From positions 3,410,001 through 3,474,000 of the forward strand of contig NZ_CP119127.1 in assembly GCF_030128825.1 (NCBI RefSeq): a stretch of 64,000 nt of DNA, written 5' to 3'. This stretch comes from Sphingobium sp. WTD-1 (GTDB lineage Bacteria > Pseudomonadota > Alphaproteobacteria > Sphingomonadales > Sphingomonadaceae). Positions 4,236 to 35,346 of the stretch are shown piece after piece. Position 1 is the stretch's first letter; every line of letters begins with the position of its first letter. Position numbers and translations under genes: made by a program. The notes under the pieces were generated by a model that searched no databases, was not told the origin of the DNA, and saw only the letters and a program-made list of their open reading frames with translations.

Positions 4236-4259
4236 CCCATAGTGCAATAATTCTTGCCC
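4236..4259 (+). promoter_or_regulatory. 24-bp promoter element upstream of CoA-transferase (twin of 34671-34694)
   Basis: The core ATAGTGCAATA is followed by CTTGCCC. Twenty of 24 positions are identical to the reverse complement of 34671-34694, which also lies about 110 bases before a CaiB/BaiF gene. The right end supplies a -35-like TTGCCC (4254-4259) with a 17-base spacer to TATCAG (4277-4282). A repressor site overlapping the -35 box is the simplest reading. Confidence 0.5.
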
Positions 4260-5618: not shown

Positions 5619-6397
5619 AGATCGACCAGGGGGTAGCCGCCATCGTCACCGGCGGGGCATCGGGTCTGGGTGAGGCGACGGCCCGCGCCATCGCGGCGCA
5701 GGGCGCCAAGGTCGCGCTGTTCGATTTCAACGAGGAAACCGGGACAAAGGTCGCGGCGGACATCGGCGGCACCTTCTGCAAGGTTGATGTCACCGACGAG
5801 GCCTCGGTCGATGCCGGCTTTGCCAAGGCGCGCGCCGCCCATGGCCAGGAGCGTATCCTGGTCAATTGCGCCGGCACCGGCAATGTCATCAAGACCGCCA
5901 GCCGCGACCGCGAGACCGGCGAGATCAAGGCCTTCCCGACCGACCAGTTCGAACGGATCATCCAGATCAACCTGATCGGCACCTTCCGCTGCTGCGCCAA
6001 GTCGGCCGCCGGCATGCTGAGCCTCGATCCGCTGGAGGACAAGGCGCGCGGCGTCATCATCAACACCTCCAGCGCGGCGGCGGTCGACGGCCAGATCGGC
6101 CAGGCGGCCTATTCCGCGTCGAAGGGCGGCATCGTCAGCCTGACCCTGCCGATGGCGCGTGACCTGATGGGCGAAGGCATCCGCGTCAACGCGATCCTGC
6201 CCGGTATCTTCGACACGCCGCTGATGGCGCGGGCCAGCGACAAGGTGCGCGATGCGCTGTCGGCCACCGTTCCCTTCCCCAAGCGTTTCGGCAAGCCCGA
6301 GGAGTTTGCCGCGATGGCGCTGGCGATGATCGAGAATGACTATTGGAACGGCGAATATGTGCGGCTCGACGGTGGCCTGCGCATGCCGCCGCGCTGA
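5615..6397 (+). CDS. SDR oxidoreductase, 3-hydroxyacyl-CoA dehydrogenase type-2-like (260 aa)
   Basis: Classical short-chain dehydrogenase. It has the nucleotide motif TGGASGLGEA near residue 12, NCAG, Ser in TSSAAAVDG, and the catalytic pair YSASK with Tyr166 and Lys170. The long insertion after the NCAG motif and the overall pattern resemble human HSD17B10-type 3-hydroxy-2-methylacyl-CoA dehydrogenases, which act on branched 3-hydroxyacyl-CoAs. The start is ATG 5615, overlapping the stop of the CoA-transferase (ATGA, translational coupling). A beta-oxidation dehydrogenation step is likely; NAD versus NADP preference is not settled, though the Asp in LFDF at the end of beta-2 favours NAD. 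Confidence 0.88.
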   Translation: MKIDQGVAAIVTGGASGLGEATARAIAAQGAKVALFDFNEETGTKVAADIGGTFCKVDVTDEASVDAGFAKARAAHGQERILVNCAGTGNVIKTASRDRETGEIKAFPTDQFERIIQINLIGTFRCCAKSAAGMLSLDPLEDKARGVIINTSSAAAVDGQIGQAAYSASKGGIVSLTLPMARDLMGEGIRVNAILPGIFDTPLMARASDKVRDALSATVPFPKRFGKPEEFAAMALAMIENDYWNGEYVRLDGGLRMPPR

Positions 6398-6409
6398 GGG
6401 AGAAGGACG

Positions 6410-7276
6410 ATGTCCGAAGAAGCGCAGCCCGAATTCGTGACCTATAATGTGGTGGACGGCGTCGCCTGGGTGATGCTGAACCGCCCCCAATATGGCAATG
6501 CCCAGAATTACCGGCTGCTCGGCCAGCTCGACGACGCCTTCAAGCGCGCGGTCGAGGATGACGAGGTCAAGGTGATCGTGCTCGGTGGCGAGGGCAAGCA
6601 TTTCTCGGCCGGCCATGACATCGGCACGCCGGACAAGGACAGTCACATGCCGCGCACGCGCACCAGCATGTGGTGGGACCATCTGAACAAGGGCGGCGCC
6701 GAACGCCAATATGTGTTGGAACAGGACGGCTATCTGGGCCTGTGCCGGCGCTGGGCCGACATCCCCAAGCCGATGATCGCCATGGTGCAGGGCGCCTGCA
6801 TCGCCGGCGGGCTGATGCTGGCCTGGGTCTGCGACCTCATCATCGCATCGGAAGACGCCTTCTTCCAGGATCCGGTGCAGCGCATGGCCCAGCCGGGGGT
6901 CGAATATTTCGCCCATGCCTTCGAACTGCCGACCCGCGTCGCACGCGAACTGCTGCTGCTCGGCCGCCGCATGCCGGCCCAGCGCGCCTATAATTTCGGC
7001 ATGGTGAACGAGATTTTCCCGCGCGAGACGCTGCGCGAGGAAGTGGCCAAGATCGCCGCCGAAATCGCCCAGCATGAACGGTTCGGCCTGGCGCTGACCA
7101 AGCAGGCGTTCAATTTCGTCGAGGATGCACGCGGCAAGCGGCAGGTGATGGATAGCGTGTTCCACATGCATCATCTCGCCCATGCCCATAATCAGCTGAT
7201 GACCGGCAATCTGGTCGGCGGACTGGATGCCAAGGCAATGGCATCGGCCAACAAGAAGCAGGCGGGGGAAGGATGA
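6410..7276 (+). CDS. crotonase-fold protein lacking both hydratase glutamates (288 aa)
   Basis: Enoyl-CoA hydratase/isomerase superfamily. The oxyanion-hole segments FSAGHDIG and IAGGLML are present. Aligning by eye with rat mitochondrial hydratase, the Glu of the GGGCEL motif is Met here (GLMLAWVCD) and the Glu of FGQPE is Val (FQDPVQ). A simple syn-hydration of crotonyl-type substrates is therefore doubtful; other crotonase chemistries (isomerisation, C-C hydrolysis, dehalogenation, retro-Claisen) are open. ATG 6410 follows GAGAAGGA. The stop overlaps the start of the next acyl-CoA dehydrogenase as ATGA. Confidence 0.85.
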   Translation: MSEEAQPEFVTYNVVDGVAWVMLNRPQYGNAQNYRLLGQLDDAFKRAVEDDEVKVIVLGGEGKHFSAGHDIGTPDKDSHMPRTRTSMWWDHLNKGGAERQYVLEQDGYLGLCRRWADIPKPMIAMVQGACIAGGLMLAWVCDLIIASEDAFFQDPVQRMAQPGVEYFAHAFELPTRVARELLLLGRRMPAQRAYNFGMVNEIFPRETLREEVAKIAAEIAQHERFGLALTKQAFNFVEDARGKRQVMDSVFHMHHLAHAHNQLMTGNLVGGLDAKAMASANKKQAGEG

Positions 7277-8955
7277 GCGCGGCCATGGAGATGGACAAGA
7301 ATATCCTGGTCCTGCCCGATCTGCCGGCCTTGCTGTCGAGCGCAGCCGATGCCGCGCACGCCTTCGTCGCCGCCGCCCGCCCGCATGTGAAGGGGCGGAT
7401 CAGCAATGACGGCGGAAAGGTCGATCGCGTCCTCGCCGATGTCGAGCAACATGTCGTCCACGGCTTTGGCTGGTTCGCCGCCTATGCCGAAATGCTGCGC
7501 GAAGTCGCCAGTTGGGCCGCCAGTCTCGACACGCAGGGCAGCTTTGGCGAGATCGAGGCACTGCTCGCCCAGTTGCTCTTCGCCGAATATGGCGCGCAGA
7601 TGCTGGGCGGCATCCCGATGAACCAGGGCGAGGTGATCCGCCCCACCGACCTTAGCGACGATCTGTCCGCGCTCGACGCACCGGCCCTGCGCACCCTCAT
7701 CCGCAGCGGCGGCGGCCAGGCGGTGAAGAGCGCGATTGCCGGCCATCTGGTCGATGCGCGCGGCCGGGCGACGCTGGAAAATTGCGGCCTCGACGAGATG
7801 TTCGACATGGTGCGCGACCAGTTCTTCGCTCTGTCGAACGAGAAGGTCGCGCCCTTTGCCCATGAATGGCATCTCAAGGATGAACTCATCCCGTTGCCGC
7901 TGGTCCAGGAACTGGGCGAGATGGGCGTGTTCGGCATGACCATTCCGGAAGAATTTGGCGGGCTTGGCATGGGCAAGACCGCGATGTGCGTGGTGTCGGA
8001 AGAATTATCGCGCGGCTGGATCGGCGTCGGCAGTCTCGCCACCCGGTCGGAAATCGCAGCAGAACTGATCCTGACCGGCGGCACCGCCGAGCAGAAGGCC
8101 CATTGGCTGCCGCAAATCGCCAATGCCGCGATCCTGCCCACCGCCGTCTTTACCGAGCCAGACACCGGTTCCGACCTTGGCGCGCTGCGCACCCGCGCGA
8201 CGCTCGCCGACGGCGAATATCGGGTCAGCGGCAACAAGACCTGGATCACCCATGCGGCCCGCGCCGATGTGATGACCCTGCTGGTCCGCACCGATCCCGA
8301 CACCCGCAATTACAGCGGCCTGTCGATGCTGATCGCGCCCAAGCAGCGCGGCACCGTCTACGCTCCCTTCCCCACGCCCGGCATGAGCGGCGGCGAGATC
8401 GAGGTGATCGGCTATCGCGGCATGAAGGAATATGAGATCGGCTTCGACGATTTCCGCGTGCCCGCCGCCAATCTGCTCGGCGGGGTCGAGGGCCAGGGCT
8501 TCAAGCAGTTGATGGCGACCTTCGAAAGCGCCCGTATCCAGACCGCCGCCCGCGCCATCGGCGTCGCCCAAGCGGCGCTCGACATCGGCCTGTCCTATGC
8601 GCTCGACCGCAAGCAGTTCGGCCGGCCGATCTTCGACTTCCCCCGCGTCGCCAACAAGCTGGCGATGATGGCGGCGGAGATCATGGGCGCGCGTCAGCTC
8701 ACCTATTTCGCCGCCCGGCGCAAGGATGAGGACAAGCGCTGCGATCTGGAAGCGGGCATGGCCAAGCTGATCGGCGCGCGGGTCGCCTGGGCGGCGGCCG
8801 ACAATGCGCTGCAGATCCATGGCGGCAACGGCTTCGCCACCGAATATCAGGTCAGCCGCCTGCTGGCCGACGCGCGCATCCTCAACATTTTCGAGGGCGC
8901 CGGCGAAATCCAGGCCCAGGTCATCGCCCGCCGCCTGCTCGACGAAGGTAATTGA
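7273..8955 (+). CDS. methylsuccinyl-CoA-dehydrogenase-like acyl-CoA dehydrogenase (560 aa)
   Basis: FAD acyl-CoA dehydrogenase with an extra N-terminal region of about 160 residues before the usual domain. The extension contains an FGEIEALLAQLLF...GGIPMNQGE stretch that recalls (2S)-methylsuccinyl-CoA dehydrogenase of the ethylmalonyl-CoA pathway. The core has FTEPDTGSDLG, RKQFG, IHGGNGFATEYQ and IFEGAGEIQ, which holds the catalytic Glu. The product would be a mesaconyl-CoA-like enoyl-CoA if the substrate is methylsuccinyl-CoA; related branched substrates are possible. It is the last gene of its operon and is followed by a long perfect hairpin. Confidence 0.82.
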   Translation: MSAAMEMDKNILVLPDLPALLSSAADAAHAFVAAARPHVKGRISNDGGKVDRVLADVEQHVVHGFGWFAAYAEMLREVASWAASLDTQGSFGEIEALLAQLLFAEYGAQMLGGIPMNQGEVIRPTDLSDDLSALDAPALRTLIRSGGGQAVKSAIAGHLVDARGRATLENCGLDEMFDMVRDQFFALSNEKVAPFAHEWHLKDELIPLPLVQELGEMGVFGMTIPEEFGGLGMGKTAMCVVSEELSRGWIGVGSLATRSEIAAELILTGGTAEQKAHWLPQIANAAILPTAVFTEPDTGSDLGALRTRATLADGEYRVSGNKTWITHAARADVMTLLVRTDPDTRNYSGLSMLIAPKQRGTVYAPFPTPGMSGGEIEVIGYRGMKEYEIGFDDFRVPAANLLGGVEGQGFKQLMATFESARIQTAARAIGVAQAALDIGLSYALDRKQFGRPIFDFPRVANKLAMMAAEIMGARQLTYFAARRKDEDKRCDLEAGMAKLIGARVAWAAADNALQIHGGNGFATEYQVSRLLADARILNIFEGAGEIQAQVIARRLLDEGN

Positions 8956-9001: not shown

Positions 9002-10174
9002 TCAGAGCCGTTCCACGATCGTCACATTGGCCATGCCGCCGGCCTCGCACATGGTCTGGAGGCCATAGCGCGCGCCACGGTCATGCAGCGCGCTGACCAG
9101 CGTCGCCATCAGCTTGGCGCCCGATCCGCCCAGCGGATGGCCCAGCGAAATCGCCCCGCCATGCACGTTGAGCCGCGCCGGATCGGCGCCCAGCGCCTTG
9201 GCCCAGGCCAGCGGCACCGGCGCGAACGCCTCGTTCACTTCATACAGATCGATCTCGCCCAGCGTCAGGCCTGCCCGCGCCAGCGCCCGCTCGGTCGCCG
9301 GGATCGGCGCCTCCAGCATGATCACCGGATCATGACCCAGCACGGTCATTTCATGCACCCGCGCCAGCGGCGTCAGGCCATGGGTCTTGAGGCCCCGCTC
9401 ATTGACGATCAGCAGCGCCGCGGCGCCATCGCAGATCTGGCTGGCATTGGCGGCCGAAATCACCCCGCCCTCGGTCAACAGCTTGACGCTGGCAATCTTC
9501 TCCAGGCTGGCGTCGAAGCGAATGCCCTCATCCACCTTGTGGACCAGCTTTTCGCCCTCGGCGGTCTCGACCTCCAGCGGCACGATCTCCGCATCGAACT
9601 TGCCGGCCTGCGTCGCCGCCGCCGCGCGATGATGGCTCTCCAGCGCATAGGCGTCGAGCGCGGCACGGTCGAAGCCATATTTGCGGGCCATCATCTCGGC
9701 CCCGCCAAACTGGCTGAACGGCGTGTCGGGATAGCGCGCCTCGATCCCCGGACTGCGATAGGTGCCGAACCCATGCTTGGCCGCCAGCGTCCAGGGCAGC
9801 CCCATCGGCACGCGCGTCATGCTCTCGACACCGGCGGCGATCACCACATCCTGCACGCCCGCCATCACCGTCGCGGCGGCGAAATGCAGCGCCTGTTGCG
9901 ACGATCCGCACTGGCGGTCGACATGGGTGCCGGGCACGGATTCGGGCAGGCCGCTGGCCAGCACGGCGTTGCGGGCGATGTTCGCGCCCTGCTCGCCGCC
10001 GGGACAGGCGCAGCCCATGATGACATCCTCGATCGCGGCCGGGTCGATCCCGCTGCGGCCCACCAGTCCCGCCAGCACGCGCCCGGCCAGATCCGCAGGA
10101 TGCACCCCCGCCAGCCTGCCGCCCCGCTTGCCACCGGCGCTGCGCGCCACGGCCGCAATATATGCCTCCGCCAT
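9002..10174 (-). CDS. acetyl-CoA C-acyltransferase (thiolase, 390 aa)
   Basis: Second thiolase of the window. Active-site blocks: Cys in VDRQCGSSQQ (about residue 89), NEAFAPVP, His in GHPLGGSGAK and Cys in CEAGGMAN. GGAGGAG lies just before ATG 10174. It is the last gene downstream of cofC on the minus strand (72-base gap). That gap carries its own AT-rich promoter region with a TGCAAT element, so it may be both read through from the F420 operon and expressed independently. The likely role is thiolytic cleavage of a 3-ketoacyl-CoA made by the divergent catabolic operon. Confidence 0.93.
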   Translation of the reverse strand: MAEAYIAAVARSAGGKRGGRLAGVHPADLAGRVLAGLVGRSGIDPAAIEDVIMGCACPGGEQGANIARNAVLASGLPESVPGTHVDRQCGSSQQALHFAAATVMAGVQDVVIAAGVESMTRVPMGLPWTLAAKHGFGTYRSPGIEARYPDTPFSQFGGAEMMARKYGFDRAALDAYALESHHRAAAATQAGKFDAEIVPLEVETAEGEKLVHKVDEGIRFDASLEKIASVKLLTEGGVISAANASQICDGAAALLIVNERGLKTHGLTPLARVHEMTVLGHDPVIMLEAPIPATERALARAGLTLGEIDLYEVNEAFAPVPLAWAKALGADPARLNVHGGAISLGHPLGGSGAKLMATLVSALHDRGARYGLQTMCEAGGMANVTIVERL

Positions 10175-10200: not shown

Positions 10201-10214
10201 TGCAATTTTATTGC
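10201..10214 (-). promoter_or_regulatory. TGCAAT/ATTGC inverted element upstream of thiolase
   Basis: TGCAAT, a spacer of two bases, and ATTGC lie 27-40 bases upstream of the thiolase ATG, next to an AT-rich stretch that includes a TATAAT-like hexamer on the minus strand. It resembles the sites at 16393-16409 and 4236-4259. Confidence 0.4.
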
Positions 10215-10246
10215 CTTACCCCGCCCGTTCGGCAGGGCCAAGGCAA

Positions 10247-10825
10247 TTATGCACCAACGGAAAATATTTGGAGATGCTCGGGCAGGTCGACATCGTCGGC
10301 GAGACCGGGCCGCCGGAGGATCGACACGCGATATCCAGCCCGTTCCGCTTCGCCCACATGCGCGGCACAGCTACCCGGCCCGAAACGCAGCGGGATGACG
10401 CCGGGCCGCTTCAGCAGCAGCGCGTTCGTTCCCTGCCCCTCACGATCGGTGGCGATCACCACATCGGCGGGTTCCTGCACCATCGCGCGCAGGTCCGCAG
10501 CCGCCAGCATCGGCAGGTCCGCGCTCAGGATCAGCACCGGGCGATCGACCGGCAACGCCTGCATCGCCACCATCAGCGCCGGCACATGGCCCGGCTCCCG
10601 CTCGGCCAGGACAGTCGCGCCCCGCTCGGTCGCGAAACCGCGCACCTCCGGGCAGGCGCTGACGACATAGGTGATTGCATCCAGCCCAGCATCGCGCGCG
10701 ACCGCCAGCACATGCCCCAATAATTGCCGGCACAGCGCCGCCCGATCCCGTGGCCCCAGCACCTGCGACAACCGGCTCTTGCCCTGCGCGAAGCTCTTGG
10801 CAGGGATCAGGATCGACAGGGTCAC
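10247..10825 (-). CDS. cofC: CofC/FbiD guanylyltransferase of F420 biosynthesis (192 aa)
   Basis: Activates a phosphorylated three-carbon acid (2-phospho-L-lactate, phosphoenolpyruvate or 3-phosphoglycerate, depending on lineage) with GTP to the guanylyl diphosphate used by CofD. The MobA-like nucleotidyltransferase fold is visible in the N-terminal ILIPAKSFAQGKSRL, the LILSADLPML segment around residue 97, and the late RFGPGSCAAHVGEA. Length is close to that of free-standing CofC. Its ATG overlaps the cofD stop as ATGA. Which acid is used cannot be read from the sequence by eye. Confidence 0.92.
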   Translation of the reverse strand: MTLSILIPAKSFAQGKSRLSQVLGPRDRAALCRQLLGHVLAVARDAGLDAITYVVSACPEVRGFATERGATVLAEREPGHVPALMVAMQALPVDRPVLILSADLPMLAAADLRAMVQEPADVVIATDREGQGTNALLLKRPGVIPLRFGPGSCAAHVGEAERAGYRVSILRRPGLADDVDLPEHLQIFSVGA

Positions 10826-11763
10826 GGGGCCTCGCGCCGCAAGGCGACCGCAAAATCGATCATCTGAGCGGCCAGTGCCCGCTGCTGATCGACATTGCGC
10901 ATCAATATGTCGGCACTGCGCACCGCCAGCCCGCCGTCGGACCAGCCCTGCGCGTCGGCCACGTCCACCATCAGCCCGTCGATCAGCCCGTCATAATGGC
11001 GGGCGACCGTCGCGGGGGTCGTCGGCAGGCCCAGTTCGGTCATGATCTTGGCCGCCGGTCCCTTGACCGCCTGTCCCGCGATGAAGGGCGACAGCGCCAC
11101 GCACGGCACGCGCCGCGCCACCAGCCTATCGCGCACACCCGGCACCGCCAAAATCGGGTCGATCGACAGGATCGGGTTGGACGGGCAGAGGATGATCGCC
11201 TCCAGCGCGGGATCATCCAGCGCCGCCACCAGCCCAGCACTCGGCCGCGCCGCTGCTGCGCCGTCGAACCGGATCGATTTGAAGCGCGGCCCGCATTGAT
11301 GGCGCACGAAATAATCCTGGAAGGCCATTTCGCCCTGGTCGGTGTCGATCATCGACCGGACCGGATCGTCGCTCATCGGCACGATCGCCGGCCCGATGCC
11401 CAGCCGCGCGACGATGTCCGCCGTGGCCGAAGACAGCGTGCCCTCGCGCAGCAAGGCGGTGCGCAGCACATGGGTCGCCAGATCCCGATCGCCCAGGTTG
11501 AACCAGCTTTCGCCGCCCAGCCGCCGTGTCGCGTCCATGAAGGCCCAGCTTTCATCGGCCACGCCCCAGCCGCGCACGCTATCGTTCATGCCGGCGAGCG
11601 CGTAGGTGACGCTGTCGATGTCGGGCGAGATATGCAGGCCCATATGGACGAAATCATCGCCGGTGTTGACGGCAATGGTCAGTGCGCCGGGCGGCACGAC
11701 GCCGGCCAGGCCATTGGCCAGCTTGGCGCCGCCGACGCCCCCGGCCAGGGCCAACACGCTCAT
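10822..11763 (-). CDS. cofD: CofD/FbiA phospholactate (or analogue) transferase (313 aa)
   Basis: Transfers the activated phospho-acid moiety to 7,8-didemethyl-8-hydroxy-5-deazariboflavin (Fo) to form F420-0 or its dehydro form. It shows the family N-terminus ALAGGVGGAKLANGL, AVNTGDDFVHMGLHISPD, WFNLGDRDLATH and the C-terminal ILCPSNPILSIDPIL. Length is typical (about 310-330). It overlaps cofC and cofE by four bases at each end, so the three are translationally coupled. Confidence 0.96.
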   Translation of the reverse strand: MSVLALAGGVGGAKLANGLAGVVPPGALTIAVNTGDDFVHMGLHISPDIDSVTYALAGMNDSVRGWGVADESWAFMDATRRLGGESWFNLGDRDLATHVLRTALLREGTLSSATADIVARLGIGPAIVPMSDDPVRSMIDTDQGEMAFQDYFVRHQCGPRFKSIRFDGAAAARPSAGLVAALDDPALEAIILCPSNPILSIDPILAVPGVRDRLVARRVPCVALSPFIAGQAVKGPAAKIMTELGLPTTPATVARHYDGLIDGLMVDVADAQGWSDGGLAVRSADILMRNVDQQRALAAQMIDFAVALRREAP

Positions 11764-12533
11764 GGAAACAGGTCCATCGCCGGTTCGCGGATCAGTTCGG
11801 CCGCGCTACCCTCATTGCAGCCCCGCGCAACGCCCCGCGCCACCACGATCGGCCGGCCTTCCCCGGCCTGCCCCATGATCAGCGAGGCGGCGGCCGCCAC
11901 CTCGTCGGCCAGGCCCAGTTCGCTGGTCTGCAACGGCCGACCATGCAGATCCGGCTCACCGCGGAGATCGAGCAGGCCGCTCATGCCGGCGACGCCGATC
12001 GCCACGCCGCAAGTGCCCTTGCGCCAGGCCCGGCCCAGGCTGTCGATGATGACCACCGCAATATCTACGCCCAGTGCATCACGCACCGCCTGCCGCAGCG
12101 CCGCAGCGCTGCCATCGGGATCGAGCGGCAGCAGCAGCGCGACACCATCCCCATCCTGCGCGATATTGGACTGGTCGATCCCGGCATTGGCCAGCACCAG
12201 ACCCAGCCGATGGCGCACGATCAGCACGCCCGGCCGGACCCGCATCAGCTTCTCGCTCTCCGACAGGATCAGTTCGACCAGCCGGGGATCCTTGTGGCAT
12301 TGCGCTGCCAGATCGATCGCCTCGTCCGAGGGCGACACGCTGGCCAGCGGCACCGCGCGTCCCTCCGCCTTGGATATGATCTTCTGCGCCAGCACGACGA
12401 TGTCGCCATCCTGCAGCGACAGACCATTGGCATGGCAGGCCGACAGCAGCATGGCCGACAGATCGTCGCCCGGCGCAACCATGGGAACCCCGTTCAGGGC
12501 CGATAATGTGACGGCGGCCGGTGCGACTATCAT
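11760..12533 (-). CDS. cofE: CofE coenzyme F420-0:L-glutamate ligase, single-domain (257 aa)
   Basis: Adds gamma-linked glutamates to F420-0 using GTP. Recognised by the DGDIVVLAQKIISKAEGR segment near residue 42, and downstream by VVIIDSLGRAWRKG and GVAIGVAGM. At 257 residues it is the CofE domain only. The C-terminal FMN nitroreductase domain of mycobacterial FbiB, which reduces dehydro-F420-0, is absent. That favours a phosphoacid precursor that needs no such reduction, or a separate reductase elsewhere. The stop overlaps the cofD start. Confidence 0.95.
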   Translation of the reverse strand: MIVAPAAVTLSALNGVPMVAPGDDLSAMLLSACHANGLSLQDGDIVVLAQKIISKAEGRAVPLASVSPSDEAIDLAAQCHKDPRLVELILSESEKLMRVRPGVLIVRHRLGLVLANAGIDQSNIAQDGDGVALLLPLDPDGSAAALRQAVRDALGVDIAVVIIDSLGRAWRKGTCGVAIGVAGMSGLLDLRGEPDLHGRPLQTSELGLADEVAAAASLIMGQAGEGRPIVVARGVARGCNEGSAAELIREPAMDLFP

Positions 12534-12542
12534 AGATGCAGC

Positions 12543-13214
12543 TTACACTCCGGTGATGCGAATACCCGATCCGGGCACCTTGTACCGCCGATTGAGCGCA
12601 ATCAAGACCGACGTAAGTCCTTCTGCGACAACCGAATTGCACAGCGGTCCGGCATTCCAGGCGCGCAGGCCGATTTCCTGCGCCAGCTCGACCACCTGGT
12701 CCGCCGCCTCGCTGTCGTCGGCACAGACCAGCACGTCGCACTCGATCTCTTCGTCCAGCTTGGTCAAATGATGCGCGCTGATATTCTGGAAGGCAGAGAC
12801 GACGCGGACCCCCTCGCCCAGCATCTTCTGCACCGCCTCGACCGCCGATCCGCCATCGGGCAACTGCACCCGGCTGACCTTGGGCGGCACCAGCGGCACG
12901 GTCACGTCGATCAATATCTTGCCGGCCAGCGCGTCGGCGACATCCTTCACCGTCGATTGCTGCGCAGCATAGGGCACGGCCAGCACGATGATGTCGGCCT
13001 GCGCTGCGGCATCGGGATTGGCGGCGCCGACGACCGAACTGCCGCCCAGCGTCGCGTTCATCGTATCAGCCGCTTCCTGCGCTCGCTCGGCGGTGCGGCT
13101 GCCGATGATGACCTTGTGTCCCTTGTGCGCCCAGCGCAGCGCCAGGCCGCCACCTTCCTTGCCGGTCCCGCCAAGCACGGCGATCGTCGCCAAAGCCTCA
13201 TTCTGCATATTCAA
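12543..13214 (-). CDS. npdG: NADPH:F420 reductase (223 aa)
   Basis: Reversibly transfers hydride between NADPH and F420, supplying F420H2 for F420-dependent enzymes. The Rossmann motif AVLGGTGKEGGGLALRWA at about residue 12 is followed by VIIGSRTAERA, which fits a 2'-phosphate-binding NADP site, and by VLAVPYAAQ. DVTVPLVPPKVSRVQ and AFQNISAHHL match the NpdG/Fno family. It starts at ATG 13214 (or 13208) inside the 3' end of fbiC and ends nine bases before cofE, in the centre of the F420 operon. Confidence 0.93.
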   Translation of the reverse strand: MNMQNEALATIAVLGGTGKEGGGLALRWAHKGHKVIIGSRTAERAQEAADTMNATLGGSSVVGAANPDAAAQADIIVLAVPYAAQQSTVKDVADALAGKILIDVTVPLVPPKVSRVQLPDGGSAVEAVQKMLGEGVRVVSAFQNISAHHLTKLDEEIECDVLVCADDSEAADQVVELAQEIGLRAWNAGPLCNSVVAEGLTSVLIALNRRYKVPGSGIRITGV

Positions 13215-15618
13215 ACCTCTCCTGGTTCGTATCGGCCTCGCGCCGCCGCTTGCGCGGGGGCGTCAGGACCATGGGTGTCAGTTCCGCCGCGGTCATTCCG
13301 CGTGCATGAATATCTTCGCTCACGCCGCCATAGGCGGTGCTGCGCTGCCGGGGCGTGCGGTCGATCGACCGGATCAGCGCCTCCATCGCCGCGGGTGGCA
13401 TTTCCTGGCCATGCTGGGTGCCTGCCGCGCGCGAGATGCTCTCGTTCATCAGCGTGCCGCCCAAGTCATTGGCGCCGCCCTCCAGGCAGGCCTTCACCCC
13501 TTCCGGCCCCAGCTTGACCCAGCTGGTCTGGATCGACCGGATATGCGGGTGCAGCGCCAGCCGCGCGACCGCATGCATCAGCCGCACCTCGCGGAAGGTC
13601 GGGCCATGGCGCGACTGGCCGCGCACGCCCATCGGCGCCTCCATATGGACGAAGGGCAAGGGCACAAATTCGGTGAAGCCACCGGTCCGCCGCTGCAGGT
13701 CGCGGATGCGGATCAGGTGCCTTGCCCAGTGGCGCGGCGTATCGACATGGCCGAACATGATCGTCGCAGTGGTGGTGAAGCCGACGCGATGCGCGGTCTC
13801 GATCACCTCCAGCCATTGCGCCGTGTCCAGCTTGTCCGGGCAGATGATCGCCCGCACCTCGTCATCCAATATCTCGGCCGCCGTGCCGGGCAGCGTGTCG
13901 AGGCCCACCGCCTTCAGCCGGCGCAGGAAATCCTCGACCGGCAGGCCCAGCGTCGCCGCCCCCTGCCACACTTCCAGCGGGGAAAAGGCGTGGATGTGCA
14001 TCTCGGGCACCGCCGCCTTCACCGCGCGGGCCAGGTTCAGATAGGTGTCGCCGGTATAATGGGGGTGGATGCCACCCTGCAGGCAGACTTCGGTGCCGCC
14101 CCGTTCCCACGCCTCGCGGGTGCGGCGCACCACTTCCTCCAGGTCCAGGTCATAGGGCTTGCCGCGCAGCGCCTCTGCCTTGTCGCCCTTGGAAAAGGCG
14201 CAGAAGCTGCATTTATAGGCGCAGATATTGGTGTAGTTGATGTTGCGGTTGACGACATAGCTGATCGTGTCGCCCATTTCCCGCATCCGCAGCGCGTCCG
14301 CGCTGGCGCAGACATGCTCCAGGTCGCTCTCGCGCGCGGTGAACAGCGCCTCGATCTCATCCTCTTCCAGCAGCGCCCCGGCCATCGCCCTGTCAACGAT
14401 TGCCGCGATCGCGGGATCGACCGGCAGTGCCGACGGCCGCATGATGCGCGGCTCCAGCGCGATACCCGGCGACCAGCTATCCTCGCGCGCAAAGCCCATC
14501 GCATCGGCATGGGCCAGCACATGGCTGACCATCGCATGGTCCTGCCAGCGGTCATTGTCCTGCGCATAGGCGGGATAGACGGGCAGCCGCGCCACCAGCA
14601 TCCGCCCTTCGCCCTCGGTCGCCGCGCGCAGCCGCTCGACCGCCGGCCAGGGCGCTTCCGGATTCACATGGTCGGGCGTCACCGGCGACACCCCGCCCCA
14701 ATCATTGATCCCCGCCGCCATCAGCCGCGGGAAGTCCGCCGCCGACAGGTTGGGTGGCGCCTGGATATTCATTTCCGGACCCAGGATCAGCCGCGCCACC
14801 GCGATCGTCCACAGCAGATCGTCCATGTCCGGCTCGGGCGCATCGGCCATCACCGTGCGTTCCTTGGCGCGGAAATTCTGGACGATCACTTCCTGGATAT
14901 GGCCATAGCCATCCTGCAGGTCGCGGATCGCCTCCAGCGCCTCGATCCGTTCCTCGCGCGTCTCGCCGATGCCGATCAGGATGCCGGTGGTGAAAGGGAT
15001 GGCCAGTTCGCCCGCCAGCCGGATCGTCTCCAGCCGTGCCGCCGGCTCCTTGTCGGGCGAGCGATAATGGGCGCCGCCCTTGCGGCACAGCCGGTCGGAC
15101 ACCGACTCCAGCATCAGCCCCTGCGACACTGACACCCGGCGCAGACCGGCCATTTCCTCGCGGGTCATGACCCCGGCATTGATGTGCGGCAGCAGCCCGG
15201 TCTCGTCGCGCACCAGCGCCGCCAGTTCCGCCAGATAGGACAGGGTGCTGTCATGGCCCAGCCGCGCCAGTTCCTCGCGCGCAGCGGCGAAGCGCAGTTC
15301 CGGCTTGTCGCCCAGCGTGAACAGCGCTTCAGTGCAGCCCGCCGCCTTGCCGGCGCGTGCCACCGCCAGTACGTCCTCGCGCGTCATATAGGCGTTCTCG
15401 CCCGGCCGCGGCGGCTGCGAGAAGGTGCAATAATGGCAGAGATTGCGGCATAGCTGGGTCAGCGGGATGAAGATCTTGCGCGACCAGCTCTGCACCCGGC
15501 CATGGCCTTCGTCGCGCAGCGCCGCCGCCTGCGCCATCAGTTCGGCCAGCGGCATCGCCAGCAGCTCTGCCGTGCGCGCGTGCTCCGCTTCGCCGATCCT
15601 TTCCGTAACTGCCATCAT
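13198..15618 (-). CDS. fbiC: FbiC, fused CofG-CofH Fo synthase (806 aa)
   Basis: Makes Fo, the deazaflavin chromophore of F420, from tyrosine and 5-amino-6-ribitylamino-uracil using two radical-SAM reactions. The N-terminal CofG half has the cluster motif CRNLCHYC (Cys57, 61, 64); the C-terminal CofH half has CAYKCSFC (Cys466, 470, 473). Other family marks are ILIGIGETREER, VIVQNFRAKERT, CLQGGIHPHYTGD and LPFVHMEAP. The two halves are fused in the CofG-then-CofH order of actinobacterial FbiC rather than being split as in most archaea. It begins 51 bases after the tetR stop and overlaps npdG by 17 bases. Confidence 0.97.
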   Translation of the reverse strand: MMAVTERIGEAEHARTAELLAMPLAELMAQAAALRDEGHGRVQSWSRKIFIPLTQLCRNLCHYCTFSQPPRPGENAYMTREDVLAVARAGKAAGCTEALFTLGDKPELRFAAAREELARLGHDSTLSYLAELAALVRDETGLLPHINAGVMTREEMAGLRRVSVSQGLMLESVSDRLCRKGGAHYRSPDKEPAARLETIRLAGELAIPFTTGILIGIGETREERIEALEAIRDLQDGYGHIQEVIVQNFRAKERTVMADAPEPDMDDLLWTIAVARLILGPEMNIQAPPNLSAADFPRLMAAGINDWGGVSPVTPDHVNPEAPWPAVERLRAATEGEGRMLVARLPVYPAYAQDNDRWQDHAMVSHVLAHADAMGFAREDSWSPGIALEPRIMRPSALPVDPAIAAIVDRAMAGALLEEDEIEALFTARESDLEHVCASADALRMREMGDTISYVVNRNINYTNICAYKCSFCAFSKGDKAEALRGKPYDLDLEEVVRRTREAWERGGTEVCLQGGIHPHYTGDTYLNLARAVKAAVPEMHIHAFSPLEVWQGAATLGLPVEDFLRRLKAVGLDTLPGTAAEILDDEVRAIICPDKLDTAQWLEVIETAHRVGFTTTATIMFGHVDTPRHWARHLIRIRDLQRRTGGFTEFVPLPFVHMEAPMGVRGQSRHGPTFREVRLMHAVARLALHPHIRSIQTSWVKLGPEGVKACLEGGANDLGGTLMNESISRAAGTQHGQEMPPAAMEALIRSIDRTPRQRSTAYGGVSEDIHARGMTAAELTPMVLTPPRKRRREADTNQERFEYAE

Positions 15619-15669: not shown

Positions 15670-16389
15670 TCAACCGACAGGGCCGGGTCGATCCGCAATA
15701 GCGCCGTCGCGTTGCCCCAATTGCCTGAGCATCGCTGCCGGCAGGTCCGCCGGCGCCTCCAGCAACGCCACCAGTGTCTGCAGGAAATGCTCGACGCTCG
15801 CCTCGCTGCCCCACATCGGATGCGCGCGGCTTTCGTCGGCCAGCGCGCGCTGCCGCGCCGACAGCACGGCGCTTAGGTAAGCCCCCATGAACACGAATCG
15901 CTGGTTCTGCAACGCCACCGGCAGGTCCGCCATCATGCCCCGCAGATGATCGAGGCATCGGCCATAGGCGTTGTTCCAGGCCGGATCGATCGCATCCAGC
16001 ATCATGTCGCGATGGGTCATGGCAAAGATGACGATGAACTGGACATAATGGCTGTCGGGCAGCGCCAGCACCGGCCGCACCAATATCTCCACCACCTCAC
16101 GGATCGTGCGCGGCCCACCCTGCGCCTCCAGCCCGTCGAGCGCCGCATTACGCTCCCGGTCCAGCGCCATCGCCCCGTCCATCACCAGCGCCCGGACCAG
16201 CGCCTCCTTCGATCCGAAATAATAGCTGACGGCACCGTGATTCTTCTGCCCCGCCGCCGCCGCAATCTCGCGCACGGTCACGCCATCGACGCCCTTTTCG
16301 GCGAACAGGCGCAACGCCACCTGCTTGATCTGCTCGGCAGCGGATCCGCGGGTGGCATCTTCGGCCTTGGCAAGTTGAAGTCTGACCAT
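15670..16389 (-). CDS. TetR/AcrR regulator heading the F420 operon (239 aa)
   Basis: One-domain DNA-binding repressor family. The helix-turn-helix lies at about residues 20-66 (IKQVALRLFAEKGVDG to GAVSYYFGSKEALVRALV); the C-terminal ligand domain is divergent. It is first in the minus-strand run to fbiC-npdG-cofE-cofD-cofC and divergent from the 16485 operon. A palindrome (16393-16409) begins four bases before its ATG. A minus-strand -35 TTGACG at 16424-16419, spaced 17 bases from a GAAATT -10, would place transcription start almost on the ATG, so its mRNA may be leaderless. Control of both divergent operons by an acyl-CoA or acid ligand is the likely role. Confidence 0.9.
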   Translation of the reverse strand: MVRLQLAKAEDATRGSAAEQIKQVALRLFAEKGVDGVTVREIAAAAGQKNHGAVSYYFGSKEALVRALVMDGAMALDRERNAALDGLEAQGGPRTIREVVEILVRPVLALPDSHYVQFIVIFAMTHRDMMLDAIDPAWNNAYGRCLDHLRGMMADLPVALQNQRFVFMGAYLSAVLSARQRALADESRAHPMWGSEASVEHFLQTLVALLEAPADLPAAMLRQLGQRDGAIADRPGPVG

Positions 16390-16392: not shown

Positions 16393-16409
16393 TGCAATTT
16401 CTCATTGCA
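16393..16409. promoter_or_regulatory. perfect palindrome TGCAAT-N5-ATTGCA, candidate TetR operator
   Basis: TGCAAT at 16393-16398 and ATTGCA at 16404-16409 flank TTCTC. The site overlaps the -35 of the plus-strand promoter and the -10 of the minus-strand promoter of the divergent pair. Binding would block both the F420 operon and the ten-gene catabolic operon. Confidence 0.6.
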
Positions 16410-16484: not shown

Positions 16485-17507
16485 GTGGAATCAGCGGTCG
16501 ACATCGAGTCGCTGGCGACGTGGATGACGGATCAGGGCCTTGGCTCCGGTCCGATCGACAACGTGACGCCGCTTGCCGGGGGGACGCAGAATATCCTGCT
16601 GCGCCTGACCCGCGACGGCCGCGACTATATCTTCCGCCGCCCGCCGGCGCACCCCCGCCCCAACAGCAATGAAACCATGCGGCGTGAGGCGCGGCTGCTG
16701 CGGGCGATCGCCGGCACCAATGTTCCCCATCCCGCGCTGATCGCCGATTGCGGCGACGAAAGCGTGCTGGGCGTCGCCTTCTACCTGATGGAGCCGGTCG
16801 ATGGCTTCAATCCGGTCGGCCAGCTGCCCATGCCCCATGCCGGGTCGCCCGCGATGCGCCACGCCATGGGCCTCGCCCTGGTTGACGGCATCGCCGCATT
16901 GGGCGCGCTCGATCATCAGGCGCTGGGCCTCGCCGATTTCGGCCGGCCCGACAATTTCCTCGGCCGCCAGGTCGATCGCTGGCGCAGCCAGCTTGCCGGC
17001 TATGGCGAATTTGCCGACTGGACCGGGCCGCAGGCGCTCCCCAGCGTCGACGCCATCGCCGCCTGGCTGGAACGGCACCGCCCGGCCGATTTTACCCCCG
17101 GCATCATGCATGGCGACTATCATCTCGCCAATGTCATGTACTGCCCCGACAGCGGCGATCTTGCCGCGATCATCGACTGGGAACTGGCAACGATCGGCGA
17201 TCCGCTGCTGGACCTGGGCTGGGTGCTGGCCACCTGGCCCGACGGCAGCGGCGCCAGCACCGTGTCGGTCACGCCATGGGAGGGTTTCCCGACGCCCGCT
17301 GAGCTGGTCGCACGCTATGGCGCCGGCTCCGCGCGCGATCTGTCAGCGGTCGACTGGTATCATGTCCTCGCCTGCTACAAGCTCGGCATCCTGCTGGAGG
17401 GCACCCATGCCCGCGCCTGTGCCGGCAAGGCGCCACGCGACACCGGCGACCGGCTCCACAGCCGCGCCATCCACCTTTTCGACCGCGCCCAGGCGCTGAT
17501 CCGCTGA
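16485..17507 (+). CDS. APH-type kinase, LvaA/ACAD10-11 kinase-like (340 aa)
   Basis: Aminoglycoside-phosphotransferase-fold kinase. The catalytic loop HGDYHLANVMY (Asp base, Asn metal ligand) and the metal motif IDWELATIGDPLLDLGW are intact. The N-terminal GGTQNILLRL and IFRRPP segments are the glycine-rich loop and Lys/Arg region typical of the kinase domain of ACAD10/ACAD11 and of LvaA, which phosphorylate the 4-hydroxyl of 4-hydroxyacyl-CoAs. Start is GTG 16485, nine bases after GAGG. The next genes encode an SDR and an ACAD10/11-type dehydrogenase, the known partners, so this assignment is better supported than antibiotic resistance. Confidence 0.83.
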   Translation: MESAVDIESLATWMTDQGLGSGPIDNVTPLAGGTQNILLRLTRDGRDYIFRRPPAHPRPNSNETMRREARLLRAIAGTNVPHPALIADCGDESVLGVAFYLMEPVDGFNPVGQLPMPHAGSPAMRHAMGLALVDGIAALGALDHQALGLADFGRPDNFLGRQVDRWRSQLAGYGEFADWTGPQALPSVDAIAAWLERHRPADFTPGIMHGDYHLANVMYCPDSGDLAAIIDWELATIGDPLLDLGWVLATWPDGSGASTVSVTPWEGFPTPAELVARYGAGSARDLSAVDWYHVLACYKLGILLEGTHARACAGKAPRDTGDRLHSRAIHLFDRAQALIR

Positions 17508-17508
17508 C

Positions 17509-18270
17509 ATGCAGGAAGGATGTTCCCCATTGGGCAATGAACTGGACTTCACCGGAAAGACGGTGCTGGTGGTCGGCGGATCGAGCGGCATCGGCAATGG
17601 CATGGCCCAGGCCTTTCTGAAGCGCGGCGCCCGCGTCCATGTCTGGGGCACCCGCGCCAGCGCCGCCGACTATGCTGGCGAGGAAGGCTCGGACCTCGAC
17701 AATATCGGCTATACCCAGGTCGACGTCAGCGATCCCGCCGCGATCGCCGCCGCGCCCGCGCCGTTCGATGCGCTGGACATCCTCATCCATTCGCAGGGCG
17801 CCGTCCTTTATCGCCGCCAGGAGTTCGAGGTCGACGGCTGGAACAAGGTGATGGCGGTCAATCTCGACTCCATCCTCCACATCTCCAATCGCTTCAAGGA
17901 TGCGCTGGCGGCCACGAAAGGCGCCGTCATCGTCGTCAGCTCGATCGGCGGGTTCAAGGCGACCTTCGGCAACCCCGCCTATGCCGCATCGAAGGCCGGC
18001 GCCGTCAATCTGGTCCGCGCGCTCGCCATCGCCTGGGCTGGCGAGGGCATCCGCGTCAACGGCATCGCCCCCAGCCTGGTCGATACCAAGATGACCAAGG
18101 TGACGATGGATAATGACGAGCGGCGCGACCGCGCGCTGTCGCGCATCCCGCTCGGCCGCTTCGGCTCGGTGGAGGAGATGGCCGGCGTCGCCCTGTTCCT
18201 CGCCTCCCCCCTCTCCACCTACATCTGCGGGCAGACGCTGATCGTGGACGGCGGCCTGACGCTGACCTGA
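17509..18270 (+). CDS. SDR oxidoreductase (253 aa)
   Basis: Classical short-chain dehydrogenase with [11 protein letters not shown] near residue 24, catalytic Ser in VVSSIGG and Tyr158/Lys162 in YAASKAG, ending in [16 protein letters not shown] 17509 abuts the kinase stop. An in-frame TTG at 17530, ten bases after AGGAAGGA, may be the true start and would give 246 residues beginning at GNELDF. In the analogous lva operon an SDR (LvaD) oxidises the 3-hydroxyacyl-CoA or reduces the 4-ketoacyl-CoA; a like role is inferred here from position only. Confidence 0.88.
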
Positions 18271-18314
18271 TCCCCCTGCCCGCCTTCGCCCCATTTCCCA
18301 AAAGGACCGATCGC

Positions 18315-19544
18315 ATGGATTTCGAATATTCCGACAAGGTGCAGGCGCTGCGGGCGCAGCTCACCGATTTCATGGACGCCCATGTCTATCCGATCGAGAA
18401 GGAACGGGATCATTTCCACCATGATCCCGCCCATCTGTGGCAGCGCTGGCCGGGCACCGAGACGATCAAGGCCAAGGCGAAGGAAGCGGGCCTGTGGAAC
18501 CTGTTCCTGCCGCATGAATATGGGGCATGGAGTCCGGGCCTCACCAACCTCGAATATGCGCCGCTGGCCGAACTGATGGGCCGGGTGATCGGATCGTCGG
18601 AATATTATAACTGCTCCGCGCCCGACACCGGCAATATGGAAGTGCTCGCCCGCTACGGTACGCCCGAGCAGCAGGAGAAGTGGCTGAAGCCCCTGCTCGC
18701 CGGCGATATCCGCTCCTGCTATGTCATGACTGAGCCGGGCGTCGCCTCGTCCGACGCCACCAATGTCGAAACGACGATCGTCGCGGATGGTGACGACTAT
18801 GTCATCAATGGCCGCAAATGGTGGATTTCGGGTGCGCTCGATCCGCTGACCAAAGTCTATATCCTGCTCGGCCGCACCCCCAATGCGGATCGGCCGCGCC
18901 ACCAGCAGCATTCGCAGATCCTGATCCCGGCCGATACGCCGGGGATAGAGATCGTCCGCCCGCTCGACGTGATGAACGCCGTCCATTCGCCCGGCGGCCA
19001 TGCCGAGATGGTCTTCAAGGATGTGCGCGTGCCCAGGGAAAATCTGATCCTGGGCGAAGGACGCGGGTTCGAGATCGCCCAGGGGCGCCTGGGGCCGGGC
19101 CGCATCCACCATTGCATGCGCCTCATCGGCCAGGCCCAGCGCGCACTCGAATATATGGCCCGCCGCGTCGACAGCCGTGTCGCCTTCGGCCGCAAGCTCG
19201 CCGATCAGGGCAGCATCCGCCAGGATATCGCCTTGTCCTTCTGCGAGATCGAGCAGGCCCGCCTGCTGACGCTCAAGGCCGCCGACGCGATGGACCGTCA
19301 TGGCAACAAGGTCGCCAAGGATCTGATCGCCGCGATCAAGATCGTCGCCCCGCGCATGACCCAGACGGTCGCCGACCGCGCGATGCAGGTGTTCGGCGGC
19401 ATCGGCATGGCCAGCGACTTCCCGCCCGCCGCCGCCTTCATGAATGCGCGCTACCTGCGCCTCGCCGACGGGCCGGACGAAGTCCACATGGCCCAGCTCG
19501 GCAAGCTCAAGATCGCCGAACTCAACGCATTGCCGCAACGCTGA
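18315..19544 (+). CDS. ACAD10/11-type acyl-CoA dehydrogenase, LvaC-like (409 aa)
   Basis: Acyl-CoA dehydrogenase fold of the ACAD10/ACAD11 branch. It carries [35 protein letters not shown] and a terminal LADGPDEVH in place of the usual YEGTSEIQ. This ADGPDEVH signature marks the branch that, in ACAD10/11 and LvaC, converts 4-phosphoryloxyacyl-CoA to a 2-enoyl-CoA and rehydrates it to the 3-hydroxyacyl-CoA instead of performing a net oxidation. Located two genes after the matching kinase. ATG 18315 follows AAAAGGA. The reaction is inferred from family and context. Confidence 0.88.
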
Positions 19545-19572
19545 GAGACGCAAGAGGGCGAAGGGAAGGATC

Positions 19573-20925
19573 ATGCTGATGACCAGCCAGGAAACAGCCC
19601 CGGACGGCCGCGCCCCCCAGCAACTGGGCACCGCCTGGTGGATGGTGGCGGTGCTGTTCGGCCTCTATGTCCTGTCCTGGGTCGATCGACTGATCGTGTC
19701 GATGCTGGTCACGCCGATCAAGGCGCATCTGCTGCTCAGCGATGTCCAGGTCAGCATGATCACCTCGACCTCCTTCGCCATCTTCTACGCCATTTTCGGC
19801 CTGCCGCTCGGCTGGGCGGCGGACCGTTATTCGCGCCGCTGGATCATCTTCGGCGGCGTCGCGCTCTGGGCCGTCGCCACTACGGCCTGCGGCTTCGCGC
19901 AAAGCTATGAGGCGCTGCTGGTCGGGCGCATCTTCGTCGGCGTGGGGGAAGCGGCGCTGCTGCCCGCCGCCTATTCGCTGATCGCCGACGCCTTTCCGCC
20001 GCGCCTGCTGACCCGCGCCACCTCCACCTTCCAGATGGCCGGCAAGGTCGGCTCTGCAACAGCATTTGCCCTTGGCGGCGTCGCCATCGCCTTCGCCGCC
20101 GCGCATAGCGGCATCCATATTCCCTTCCATGGCCCGGCCCAGCCCTGGCAGTTGGTGATGATGATGGTCGGCGTGCCCGGCCTGCTCATCGCCCTGCTGG
20201 TCTTCACCTTCCCCGAACCCGGCCGCCGCGGCGCGACCAGGGTCGCGCGCCCGGTCGCGGAAAAGGGCGCGATCGCCGGCTTCGTGCGCCAGAACTGGCG
20301 GCTGCTGGCGCTGATGCTGGTCGGCACATCCTGCCTCGCCATGTGCGGCTATTCGATGACCAACTGGGTGCCCGCCTATATCGAACGGCATTTTGGCTGG
20401 AAGCCGGTGCAATATGGCGTGGCGTTGAGCCTGATGAACATCGTTTCGGCCGTGTCGCTGGTGATCAACGGCTGGATCGTCGACCGCCTGTTCACGCGCG
20501 GCATGACGGACGCCCATCTGCGCTTCTACAGCTGGCTGATCCTCGGCTTCCTGCCGGTGATCGCCTATATGTTCTTCGCCACCAACGTCTATGTCTTCCT
20601 GGTCTGCTACTGCGTGGCGCAGTTCATCACCGTGCCCTTCATGGTCTATGTCTCCTCGATCATGGGGCTGATCGCGCCGGCGACGATCCGCGCGCGGATG
20701 CTGGCCTTCTTCCTGTTCGTCTTCACCATATTGGGCCTGGGCGCCGGCCCGGCGATCGTCGCCGCGCTCACCCAATATGTCTTCCGGTCGGAAGCCGCGC
20801 TGGGCCAGTCGCTGGCGGTGGTCGTCACCGCCTGTTCGGTCGTCGCCCTCCTCTCCTTCCGCATGGCCCTGCGCTACCTCGCCCCCACCATCGCCGCGCG
20901 TGCCGTCCACGCGCCGGCCGCCTGA
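19573..20925 (+). CDS. MFS transporter (450 aa)
   Basis: Inner-membrane major-facilitator permease with about 12 hydrophobic segments. Motif A appears as GLPLGWAADRYSRRW after TM2, and GRIFVGVGEAALLPAAY in TM4 resembles the spinster/anion-cation symporter families found in sphingomonad catabolic clusters. ATG 19573 follows AAGGGAAGGA at the right spacing; upstream in-frame codons run inside the dehydrogenase gene and are not used. It lies mid-operon, so uptake of the acid or alcohol degraded by this operon is likely. Confidence 0.88.
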   Translation: MLMTSQETAPDGRAPQQLGTAWWMVAVLFGLYVLSWVDRLIVSMLVTPIKAHLLLSDVQVSMITSTSFAIFYAIFGLPLGWAADRYSRRWIIFGGVALWAVATTACGFAQSYEALLVGRIFVGVGEAALLPAAYSLIADAFPPRLLTRATSTFQMAGKVGSATAFALGGVAIAFAAAHSGIHIPFHGPAQPWQLVMMMVGVPGLLIALLVFTFPEPGRRGATRVARPVAEKGAIAGFVRQNWRLLALMLVGTSCLAMCGYSMTNWVPAYIERHFGWKPVQYGVALSLMNIVSAVSLVINGWIVDRLFTRGMTDAHLRFYSWLILGFLPVIAYMFFATNVYVFLVCYCVAQFITVPFMVYVSSIMGLIAPATIRARMLAFFLFVFTILGLGAGPAIVAALTQYVFRSEAALGQSLAVVVTACSVVALLSFRMALRYLAPTIAARAVHAPAA

Positions 20926-20936
20926 AAGGACGCTGC

Positions 20937-22472: not shown

Positions 22473-22477
22473 TCTTC

Positions 22478-24551: not shown

Positions 24552-24565
<14 letters not shown>
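22478..24565 (+). CDS. PQQ-dependent alcohol dehydrogenase with C-terminal heme c (695 aa)
   Basis: Periplasmic quinohemoprotein oxidising an alcohol or aldehyde and passing electrons to heme c. A signal with lipobox-like LLALLAAC suggests lipid anchoring at Cys17. WPGYGGIDENHYSPL begins the beta-propeller, with repeated W-docking blades (ATTGHELWTYD, QKTGKQLWRFY). ETWDFNSAMD holds the likely catalytic Asp; CSICHG in the C-terminus binds heme. The vicinal Cys-Cys found over PQQ in methanol dehydrogenase is absent (GAWGSRGIAY). Its 3' end overlaps the next gene by 14 bases. It fits primary oxidation of an alcohol substrate to the acid used by the ligase. Confidence 0.92.
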
Positions 24566-26623
<2,058 letters not shown>

Positions 26624-26627
<4 letters not shown>

Positions 26628-27775: not shown

Positions 27776-27777
27776 CC

Positions 27778-28194: not shown

Positions 28195-28195
28195 C

Positions 28196-30469: not shown

Positions 30470-30472
30470 GGA

Positions 30473-32124: not shown

Positions 32125-32160
32125 CCTTTGGGTTCCTCTTCCCGATTATTGGCTGTTGGT

Positions 32161-34560: not shown

Positions 34561-34670
34561 CACGCACTCCTGTTTGGCGGTCTGCGCCGCCTCTTGTTCG
34601 GATCTGGCCGATAGTGCGCGGAATCGCGCCTCCGACCTTTCCCTTGAAACAGACACGCTTTTTCCCGGCA

Positions 34671-34694
34671 GCGCAAGTAATATTGCACTATAGG
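34671..34694 (-). promoter_or_regulatory. 24-bp promoter element upstream of tandem CoA-transferase
   Basis: Read on the minus strand it contains CTATAGTGCAATAT followed by CTTGCGC, matching 4236-4259 at 20 of 24 positions and lying at the same distance (about 110 bases) before a CoA-transferase start. TTGCGC would serve as -35. Confidence 0.5.
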
Positions 34695-35343: not shown

Positions 35344-35346
35344 GAC

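Follow-up and report, generated by a model that had tools for sequence, protein, structure and literature searches.

A coenzyme F420 operon within a catabolic gene block of Sphingobium sp. WTD-1, with candidate F420H2-using enzymes

We describe a coenzyme F420 operon in Sphingobium sp. WTD-1, found in a 64,000-nucleotide stretch (NZ_CP119127.1, positions 3,410,001 to 3,474,000; hereafter the window) of a 5.08-Mb contig. Five F420 genes, fbiC, npdG, cofE, cofD and cofC, lie head to tail on the minus strand at 10247-15618. We consider it probable (roughly 0.7 for the explanation as a whole) that this is one F420-making operon, of a lineage long present in sphingomonads, set in a degradation block together with F420H2-using reductases. 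FbiC would make FO, CofC would use GTP to activate a phospho-acid of three carbons (in all likelihood 2-phospholactate or phosphoenolpyruvate (PEP), not 3-phosphoglycerate), CofD would transfer the activated acid onto FO, CofE would append glutamates, and NpdG would keep F420 reduced using NADPH. The operon lineage has probably been exchanged within Proteobacteria and is probably not a recent actinobacterial import; it lies in a partly conserved, perhaps TetR-controlled block that would degrade a compound via CoA thioesters. F420H2 would serve a Ddn-like flavin/deazaflavin oxidoreductase (FDOR), three luciferase-like (LLM) enzymes of the family TIGR03619, an FGD-like enzyme and perhaps the LLM enzyme encoded in the window. 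F420 production, the user enzymes, shared control and the substrate are inferred.

The operon genes are as follows, with scores in bits against the curated cut-offs of the NCBIfam equivalog families.

13198-15618, minus strand: fbiC, fused CofG-CofH FO synthase, 806 aa (NF006687, 1144.6, cut-off 1018)
12543-13208, minus strand: npdG (fno), NADPH-dependent F420 reductase, 221 aa (TIGR01915, 225.1, cut-off 149.8)
11760-12533, minus strand: cofE, F420-0:L-glutamate ligase, 257 aa (TIGR01916, 260.2, cut-off 180.65; solved structure 2phn, E 5.5e-49)
10822-11763, minus strand: cofD, tail transferase, 313 aa (TIGR01819, 269.1, cut-off 257.45)
10247-10825, minus strand: cofC, guanylyltransferase, 192 aa (TIGR03552, 134.8, cut-off 105)

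Gene set and intactness, like the co-occurrence and synteny reported below, can be read directly from the DNA. All five genes are free of internal stops and score over their cut-offs, in the order and place given by an earlier sequence-only reading of the window. npdG overlaps the end of fbiC, cofE overlaps cofD and cofD overlaps cofC, with a 9-base gap between npdG and cofE. FbiC also exceeds the cut-offs of the NCBIfam profiles TIGR03550 and TIGR03551. It carries two CX3CX2C radical-SAM motifs, at residues 57 and 466, which are common to all 126 FbiC sequences that we extracted (the window copy included). The sequence-only reading had named damage to these cluster cysteines as one finding that would count against it; both motifs are present. 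For npdG, both marks of an Fno/NpdG were found, namely a TIGR01915 score over cut-off and likeness to a solved Fno (the closest solved chain being the F420:NADP oxidoreductase 5n2i, E 4.3e-37). Its start is most likely the ATG at 13208 rather than the TTG at 13214, within the 3' end of fbiC (start and upstream sequence, AGGAGAGG). CofD matches the solved structures 3c3d (E 3.3e-53) and 6uvx (E 9.9e-44), and cofC starts with GTG.

The set had been called complete. This holds for the five intact genes but may fall one step short, as an FbiB-type reductase over cut-off was not found in the genome. The best match to the dehydro-F420 reductase domain (TIGR03553) in a search of the whole genome scored 46.5 of 249.55 bits, and the cofE product is single-domain, matching PF01996 only and without the FbiB reductase domain. 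The chain of steps is identical to that of mycobacterial FbiA, FbiB, FbiC and FbiD (PMC8498797); the difference lies in FbiB, whose reductase domain is missing from the window CofE and has no separate over-cut-off copy in the genome. The best solved match of CofC is 7p97, the 3-phosphoglycerate (3-PG) enzyme of the Mycetohabitans 3PG-F420 pathway. However, alignment to 7p97 and 6bwg places Gly149 at the position where Ser162 (Ser/Thr) of the Mycetohabitans CofC is called diagnostic for 3-PG use in excerpts of PMC8764529. Gly occupies this position in all 89 aligned rows, some of which are near copies. Gly149, the single-domain CofE and the lack of an over-cut-off FbiB homologue point to 2-phospholactate as the tail acid, or to PEP together with a reductase that escaped recognition; judging by the diagnostic residue, the acid is not 3-PG. 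Note that, according to the same excerpts, 2-phospholactate and PEP are not separable in vivo by CofC assays.

Our survey covered 397 of the family's genomes, taken from a larger group at a completeness of at least 90%. CofE was found in 59 of them, spread over 25 of 91 genera and including 6 of the 13 genomes of the genus itself. CofG was likewise found in 59 genomes, and the two occurred together in 58. The F420 trait is thus patchy yet well established in the family, and the earlier description of it as sparse in Proteobacteria was fair. CofG matches occupied 74 places across the surveyed genomes, with more than one match in 13 genomes: twelve have two, and one (G365) has four over-cut-off CofG matches beside a single CofE match.

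In several relatives, fbiC-npdG stands without adjacent cofE-cofD-cofC (L005, L006, L009, L013 and L014; within the available sequence also L007 and L015), which could be taken to mean that FO alone, not F420, is the working cofactor. However, CofG occurred without CofE in just one of the 397 genomes (G195, in about 350 contigs), which speaks against the argument from these relatives; the reverse, CofE without CofG, was also seen once (G316). Furthermore, G303 does have CofE, on a contig other than that of fbiC, and the window operon has all three tail genes. We regard FO as the working cofactor as extremely unlikely.

F420 synthesis in Alphaproteobacteria is already published, with genes and product reported for aerobic members (Paracoccus and Oligotropha; PMC8498797, consulted as excerpts), and the sphingomonad operon adds a member. 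It shares the synthesis genes with these systems and differs in its setting within an acyl-CoA block and in having candidate users of F420 that can be named. The excerpted text of that review does not contain the string 'Sphingo', and our literature searches gave no title or abstract devoted to F420 in sphingomonads. 'Coenzyme F420' does appear among the annotated cofactor genes of six Novosphingobium strains in excerpts of a 2026 genome paper (PMC13318209).

Candidate F420 users in the window, with the gene cluster around the first of them, are listed here.

50019-50606 (start may be 50091), plus strand: Ddn-like FDOR, candidate F420H2-dependent reductase (TIGR00026, 78.3 bits, cut-off 46.35; PF04075)
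49134-51606, plus strand: cluster of short-chain dehydrogenase/reductase (SDR), FDOR, EthD and SnoaL genes
31117-32124, minus strand: luciferase-like (LLM) enzyme (PF00296)

The FDOR, the only PF04075 match in the genome, is a candidate F420H2-using reductase by sequence. It matches Ddn of Mycobacterium tuberculosis (FDOR-A; 3r5r, E 1.5e-20) and keeps the ASKGG...P.WYLN stretch, but differs from Ddn in its neighbours, which are the SDR, EthD and SnoaL genes. PF04075 occurs in 22 of the 397 genomes, all of them with CofE, and is absent from 37 of the 59 CofE-positive genomes. Elsewhere in the family, one genome (G088, contig C37, 9696-13859) packs five PF04075 FDOR matches into about 4.2 kb, one of them with an internal TAG stop, and has seven in all. 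At four sphingomonad loci (L137, L138, L142 and L151), homologues of the LLM protein L083 (38-65% identity) adjoin PF04075 FDOR genes.

We compared user families in a hand-picked sample of 80 genomes, comprising 40 of the 59 with CofE and 40 of the 338 without; our P values are optimistic because the genomes are related. TIGR03619 LLM proteins (E≤1e-44) were found in 38 of 40 CofE-positive genomes and in none of 40 CofE-negative ones. The contrast ran in the same direction in all six genera of the sample that include both kinds, although the CofE-negative genome of one of these genera is G195, which has CofG. Over the curated cut-off, TIGR03619 was present in 36 of the 80 sampled genomes, with three proteins in the source genome. 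FGD-like proteins (TIGR03557, more than 414 bits) occurred in 12 of the 397 genomes, ten with CofE (in one of these, G297, a stop lies inside the gene) and two without (G214 and G335); six weaker matches were all in CofE-negative genomes. The surroundings of the FGD-like gene (L197) were considered as a second F420 locus and rejected: a gene that matches PF01243 and lies about 2.3 kb from it is pyridoxamine-oxidase-like (PF16242), with neighbours such as HSP90 and hemerythrin genes. A further protein, that of L201, looks PdxH-like.

The LLM enzyme of the window is perhaps an F420 user. Its relatives (E≤1e-40) were found in 19 of 40 CofE-positive genomes and 0 of 40 CofE-negative genomes, and eight of them, its own copy included, are at least 75% identical. 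As a control, an acyl-CoA dehydrogenase of the neighbouring gene block (E≤1e-100) was found in 27 of 40 genomes of either kind; copies at 78% identity or more came from nine CofE-positive genomes and G195, and copies at 69-71% from three CofE-negative genomes. None of the F420-LLM family models scored over cut-off for the window LLM (TIGR03619, 85.2 of 166.9 bits). Its fold seems nearest to flavin mononucleotide (FMN) enzymes and its sequence also points to FMN, so that it may be FMN-type. Occurrence confined to CofE-positive genomes speaks for F420 dependence, sequence and fold for FMN.

The operon is flanked by genes of acyl-CoA metabolism, assigned by Pfam unless stated.

4365-8955, plus strand: CoA-transferase III, SDR, enoyl-CoA hydratase and acyl-CoA dehydrogenase genes
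9002-10174, minus strand: thiolase, 72 bases downstream of the operon (NF005077, 689.7 bits, cut-off 590)
15670-16389, minus strand: TetR-family regulator (PF00440), 51 bases upstream of fbiC and beside fbiC in several relatives
16485-29236, plus strand: APH-like kinase, SDR, acyl-CoA dehydrogenase, major facilitator superfamily (MFS), acyl-CoA ligase, pyrroloquinoline quinone (PQQ) dehydrogenase, FadB-like, thiolase, OB-fold (weak match) and SGL genes, which also show synteny with fbiC
29492-36168, minus strand: quinone oxidoreductase-like, SnoaL, LLM, double CoA-transferase, flavin reductase and enoyl-CoA hydratase genes
36263-36982, minus strand: second TetR regulator (PF00440)

An operon with its NADPH reductase, embedded in catabolic DNA, had been proposed, and this is what we find. 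The arrangement is partly conserved, and loci of Sphingobium, Novosphingobium rosa and Niveispirillum have block genes next to fbiC. In L002-L006 and L009, the APH-like, SDR, acyl-CoA dehydrogenase, MFS, ligase and PQQ dehydrogenase genes lie on one side of fbiC and the thiolase on the other; several relatives have the thiolase next to either the operon or fbiC-npdG. In Novosphingobium rosa (L016, where the contig ends early) and Niveispirillum (L017, with the PQQ dehydrogenase match absent), block genes lie on the APH-like side of fbiC alone. Among 20 further sphingomonad fbiC regions, taken from the 74 CofG places, one (G201) is nearly colinear with the window over the interval that begins with the APH-like gene and ends with the double CoA-transferase, although the FadB-like and quinone-oxidoreductase-like genes have no match there. 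Two others (G127 and G190) keep part of the block beside fbiC, and 14 have little or none of it. In the remaining three (G292, G331 and G079, the first two being near copies), the double CoA-transferase, LLM and SnoaL genes adjoin an fbiC of a different, well-supported clade. The double CoA-transferase (32161-34560, 799 residues with two class III CoA-transferase stretches) is kept beside the LLM gene in these three genomes and in G201. Because one block is attached to two fbiC clades, the synteny suggests that the block needs F420, although replacement of fbiC in place is a possible alternative.

Palindromes hint at shared control of the block. The sites in the window are these.

16393-16409: palindrome TGCAATTTCTCATTGCA in the intergenic region of tetR and the APH-like gene, a possible TetR operator
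10201-10215: similar palindrome upstream of the thiolase gene
4243-4258: similar palindrome upstream of the CoA-transferase gene
34672-34687: similar palindrome upstream of the double CoA-transferase and LLM genes
36234-36249: similar palindrome upstream of the hydratase and flavin-reductase genes

With the motif chosen by eye (TGCAA-N5-7-TTGCA, at most one mismatch), five intergenic sites were counted against 0.6 expected, with a maximum of four in 200 resampled sets. At the same stringency, the palindrome is found upstream of tetR in L002, L003, L004, L009 and L016 and was not found there in L005, L006, L011, L017 and L238; it also lies in the gap between fbiC and the CoA-transferase gene at three loci. 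Only in L008 does the second TetR regulator have a nearly complete homologue upstream of fbiC (69% identical, with 231 of 239 residues covered).

It could also be that the operon is active but unrelated to the neighbouring block, with F420 serving the scattered TIGR03619 LLMs and the linkage due to chance or shared control only. Several observations lean this way, or otherwise weigh against an F420-dependent block under common control. The TIGR03619 genes, which track F420 across the sample, lie far from the window in the source genome; the window LLM looks FMN-type; and in many F420-makers (for example G083, G109 and G178) the block is not beside fbiC. Moreover, palindromes show little overall enrichment in the block loci of relatives (30 sites in 434,761 bases against 13 in 266,000 control bases, or 69 against 49 per Mb), and the 95% match to the second TetR upstream of fbiC in L007 is a 39-residue remnant, which led us to drop this regulator as evidence of shared control. 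In contrast, several genera and two FbiC clades show block genes next to fbiC, and the window LLM family is absent from all 40 CofE-negative genomes tested. We consider an operon unconnected with its surroundings unlikely.

A role of F420 in degradation is plausible on this evidence. The earlier proposal of F420-dependent degradation is borne out insofar as F420-type enzymes track the pathway and an FDOR is encoded in the window, and is weakened by the apparently FMN-type fold of the block LLM. We advance only tentatively, and at rather less than even odds, a stronger joint claim: that this is an F420-requiring catabolic regulon in which synthesis, reduction and degradation block are kept together and joined to two fbiC clades, that F420 is used in it by the FDOR and by a luciferase-fold enzyme from a new group linked to F420, and that its tail acid or reductase has not been reported from Proteobacteria so far. 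Degradation of steroids or bile acids by the block was also considered; it is possible but not supported, as F420 goes unmentioned in the literature listing of the Sphingobium Chol11 papers. Farther along the window, at 57859-60221, a sulfotransferase gene follows one whose product weakly matches DUF1214.

Where the operon came from was addressed with three trees: FbiC with 73 rows, FbiC with 48 rows and bootstraps, and CofD plus CofE with 61 rows. In all three, the window groups with sphingomonads and then with a wider set including Niveispirillum, Emcibacter and an Aromatoleum aromaticum plasmid. The best named FbiC match, at 98% identity, is Sphingobium scionense DSM 19371, in keeping with the earlier placement of the DNA in a probable sphingomonad, here a Sphingobium close to S. 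scionense. On the 73-row tree, four label changes are required for sphingomonad FbiC, so that at least two lineages are in circulation. All five genes, in unchanged order, are also found on Aromatoleum aromaticum EbN1 plasmid 2 (NC_006824.1), whose FbiC is 69% identical. This copy lies on a conjugative plasmid, between insertion sequences and beside a pyridoxamine-oxidase-family gene and one hydratase; a catabolic block matching that of the window was not found there. Because a betaproteobacterial conjugative plasmid has the identical gene order, exchange of the operon among Proteobacteria is plausible. Plasmids of Croceicoccus (NZ_CP019603.1) and Novosphingobium (NZ_CP017077.1) have sphingomonad-order F420 genes beside TIGR03619 LLM genes but belong to another clade (FbiC 57-60% identical) with other neighbours, and cofE and cofD are not listed beside the Novosphingobium copy. 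On a Sphingobium sp. TomTYG73 plasmid (L203, 9893-13077), a citryl-CoA-lyase-like gene comes after fbiC, and the annotation of the 22 kb covered shows no further cof gene. Nine more Sphingobium plasmid records have an FbiC 57.6-58.9% identical to that of the window.

The sequence-only reading had likened the fused CofG-CofH to actinobacterial FbiC and called it compatible with horizontal acquisition. Fused FbiC does occur in Actinobacteria, including in Rhodococcus DK176 and RHA1 plasmid regions, and the F420 genes are patchy in the family, as an import might leave them. However, excerpts of PMC8498797 give the fused form for Actinobacteria and Proteobacteria alike (split CofG and CofH genes occur in Leisingera and Variovorax). 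The trees proposed to decide the matter nest the window among sphingomonad and proteobacterial sequences, with all five actinobacterial rows outside the wider proteobacterial set. Note that these five are the only actinobacterial sequences included, that rooting was on actinobacterial or other distant rows, and that the deep order is unsure where some long branches meet. Four actinobacterial FbiC rows are only 47-51% identical to that of the window, and a split pair from Thermoleophilia 53-56%. Codon use, the other proposed check, does not set the operon apart either: G+C at third codon positions is 0.79-0.85 in its five genes and 0.80-0.89 in 23 other window genes. The annotated actinobacterial loci inspected have different gene orders, and in Rhodococcus DK176 a protein with the annotation of CofE ligase is 451 residues long. 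Recent import from Actinobacteria is not supported, and we judge it very unlikely.

We find that, at the genome level and within one family, the link between TIGR03619 LLM proteins and F420 synthesis is near-perfect. The locus also draws attention to the tail acid step in Alphaproteobacteria. According to excerpts of a 2021 review (PMC8498797), no F420-using reductase or F420-reducing dehydrogenase of a bacterium other than an actinobacterium had been the subject of experiments, and what F420 does in such bacteria has to be established experimentally. The locus described here combines a cultured genus, a defined operon and named candidate users, and would make a role for F420 outside Actinobacteria directly testable.

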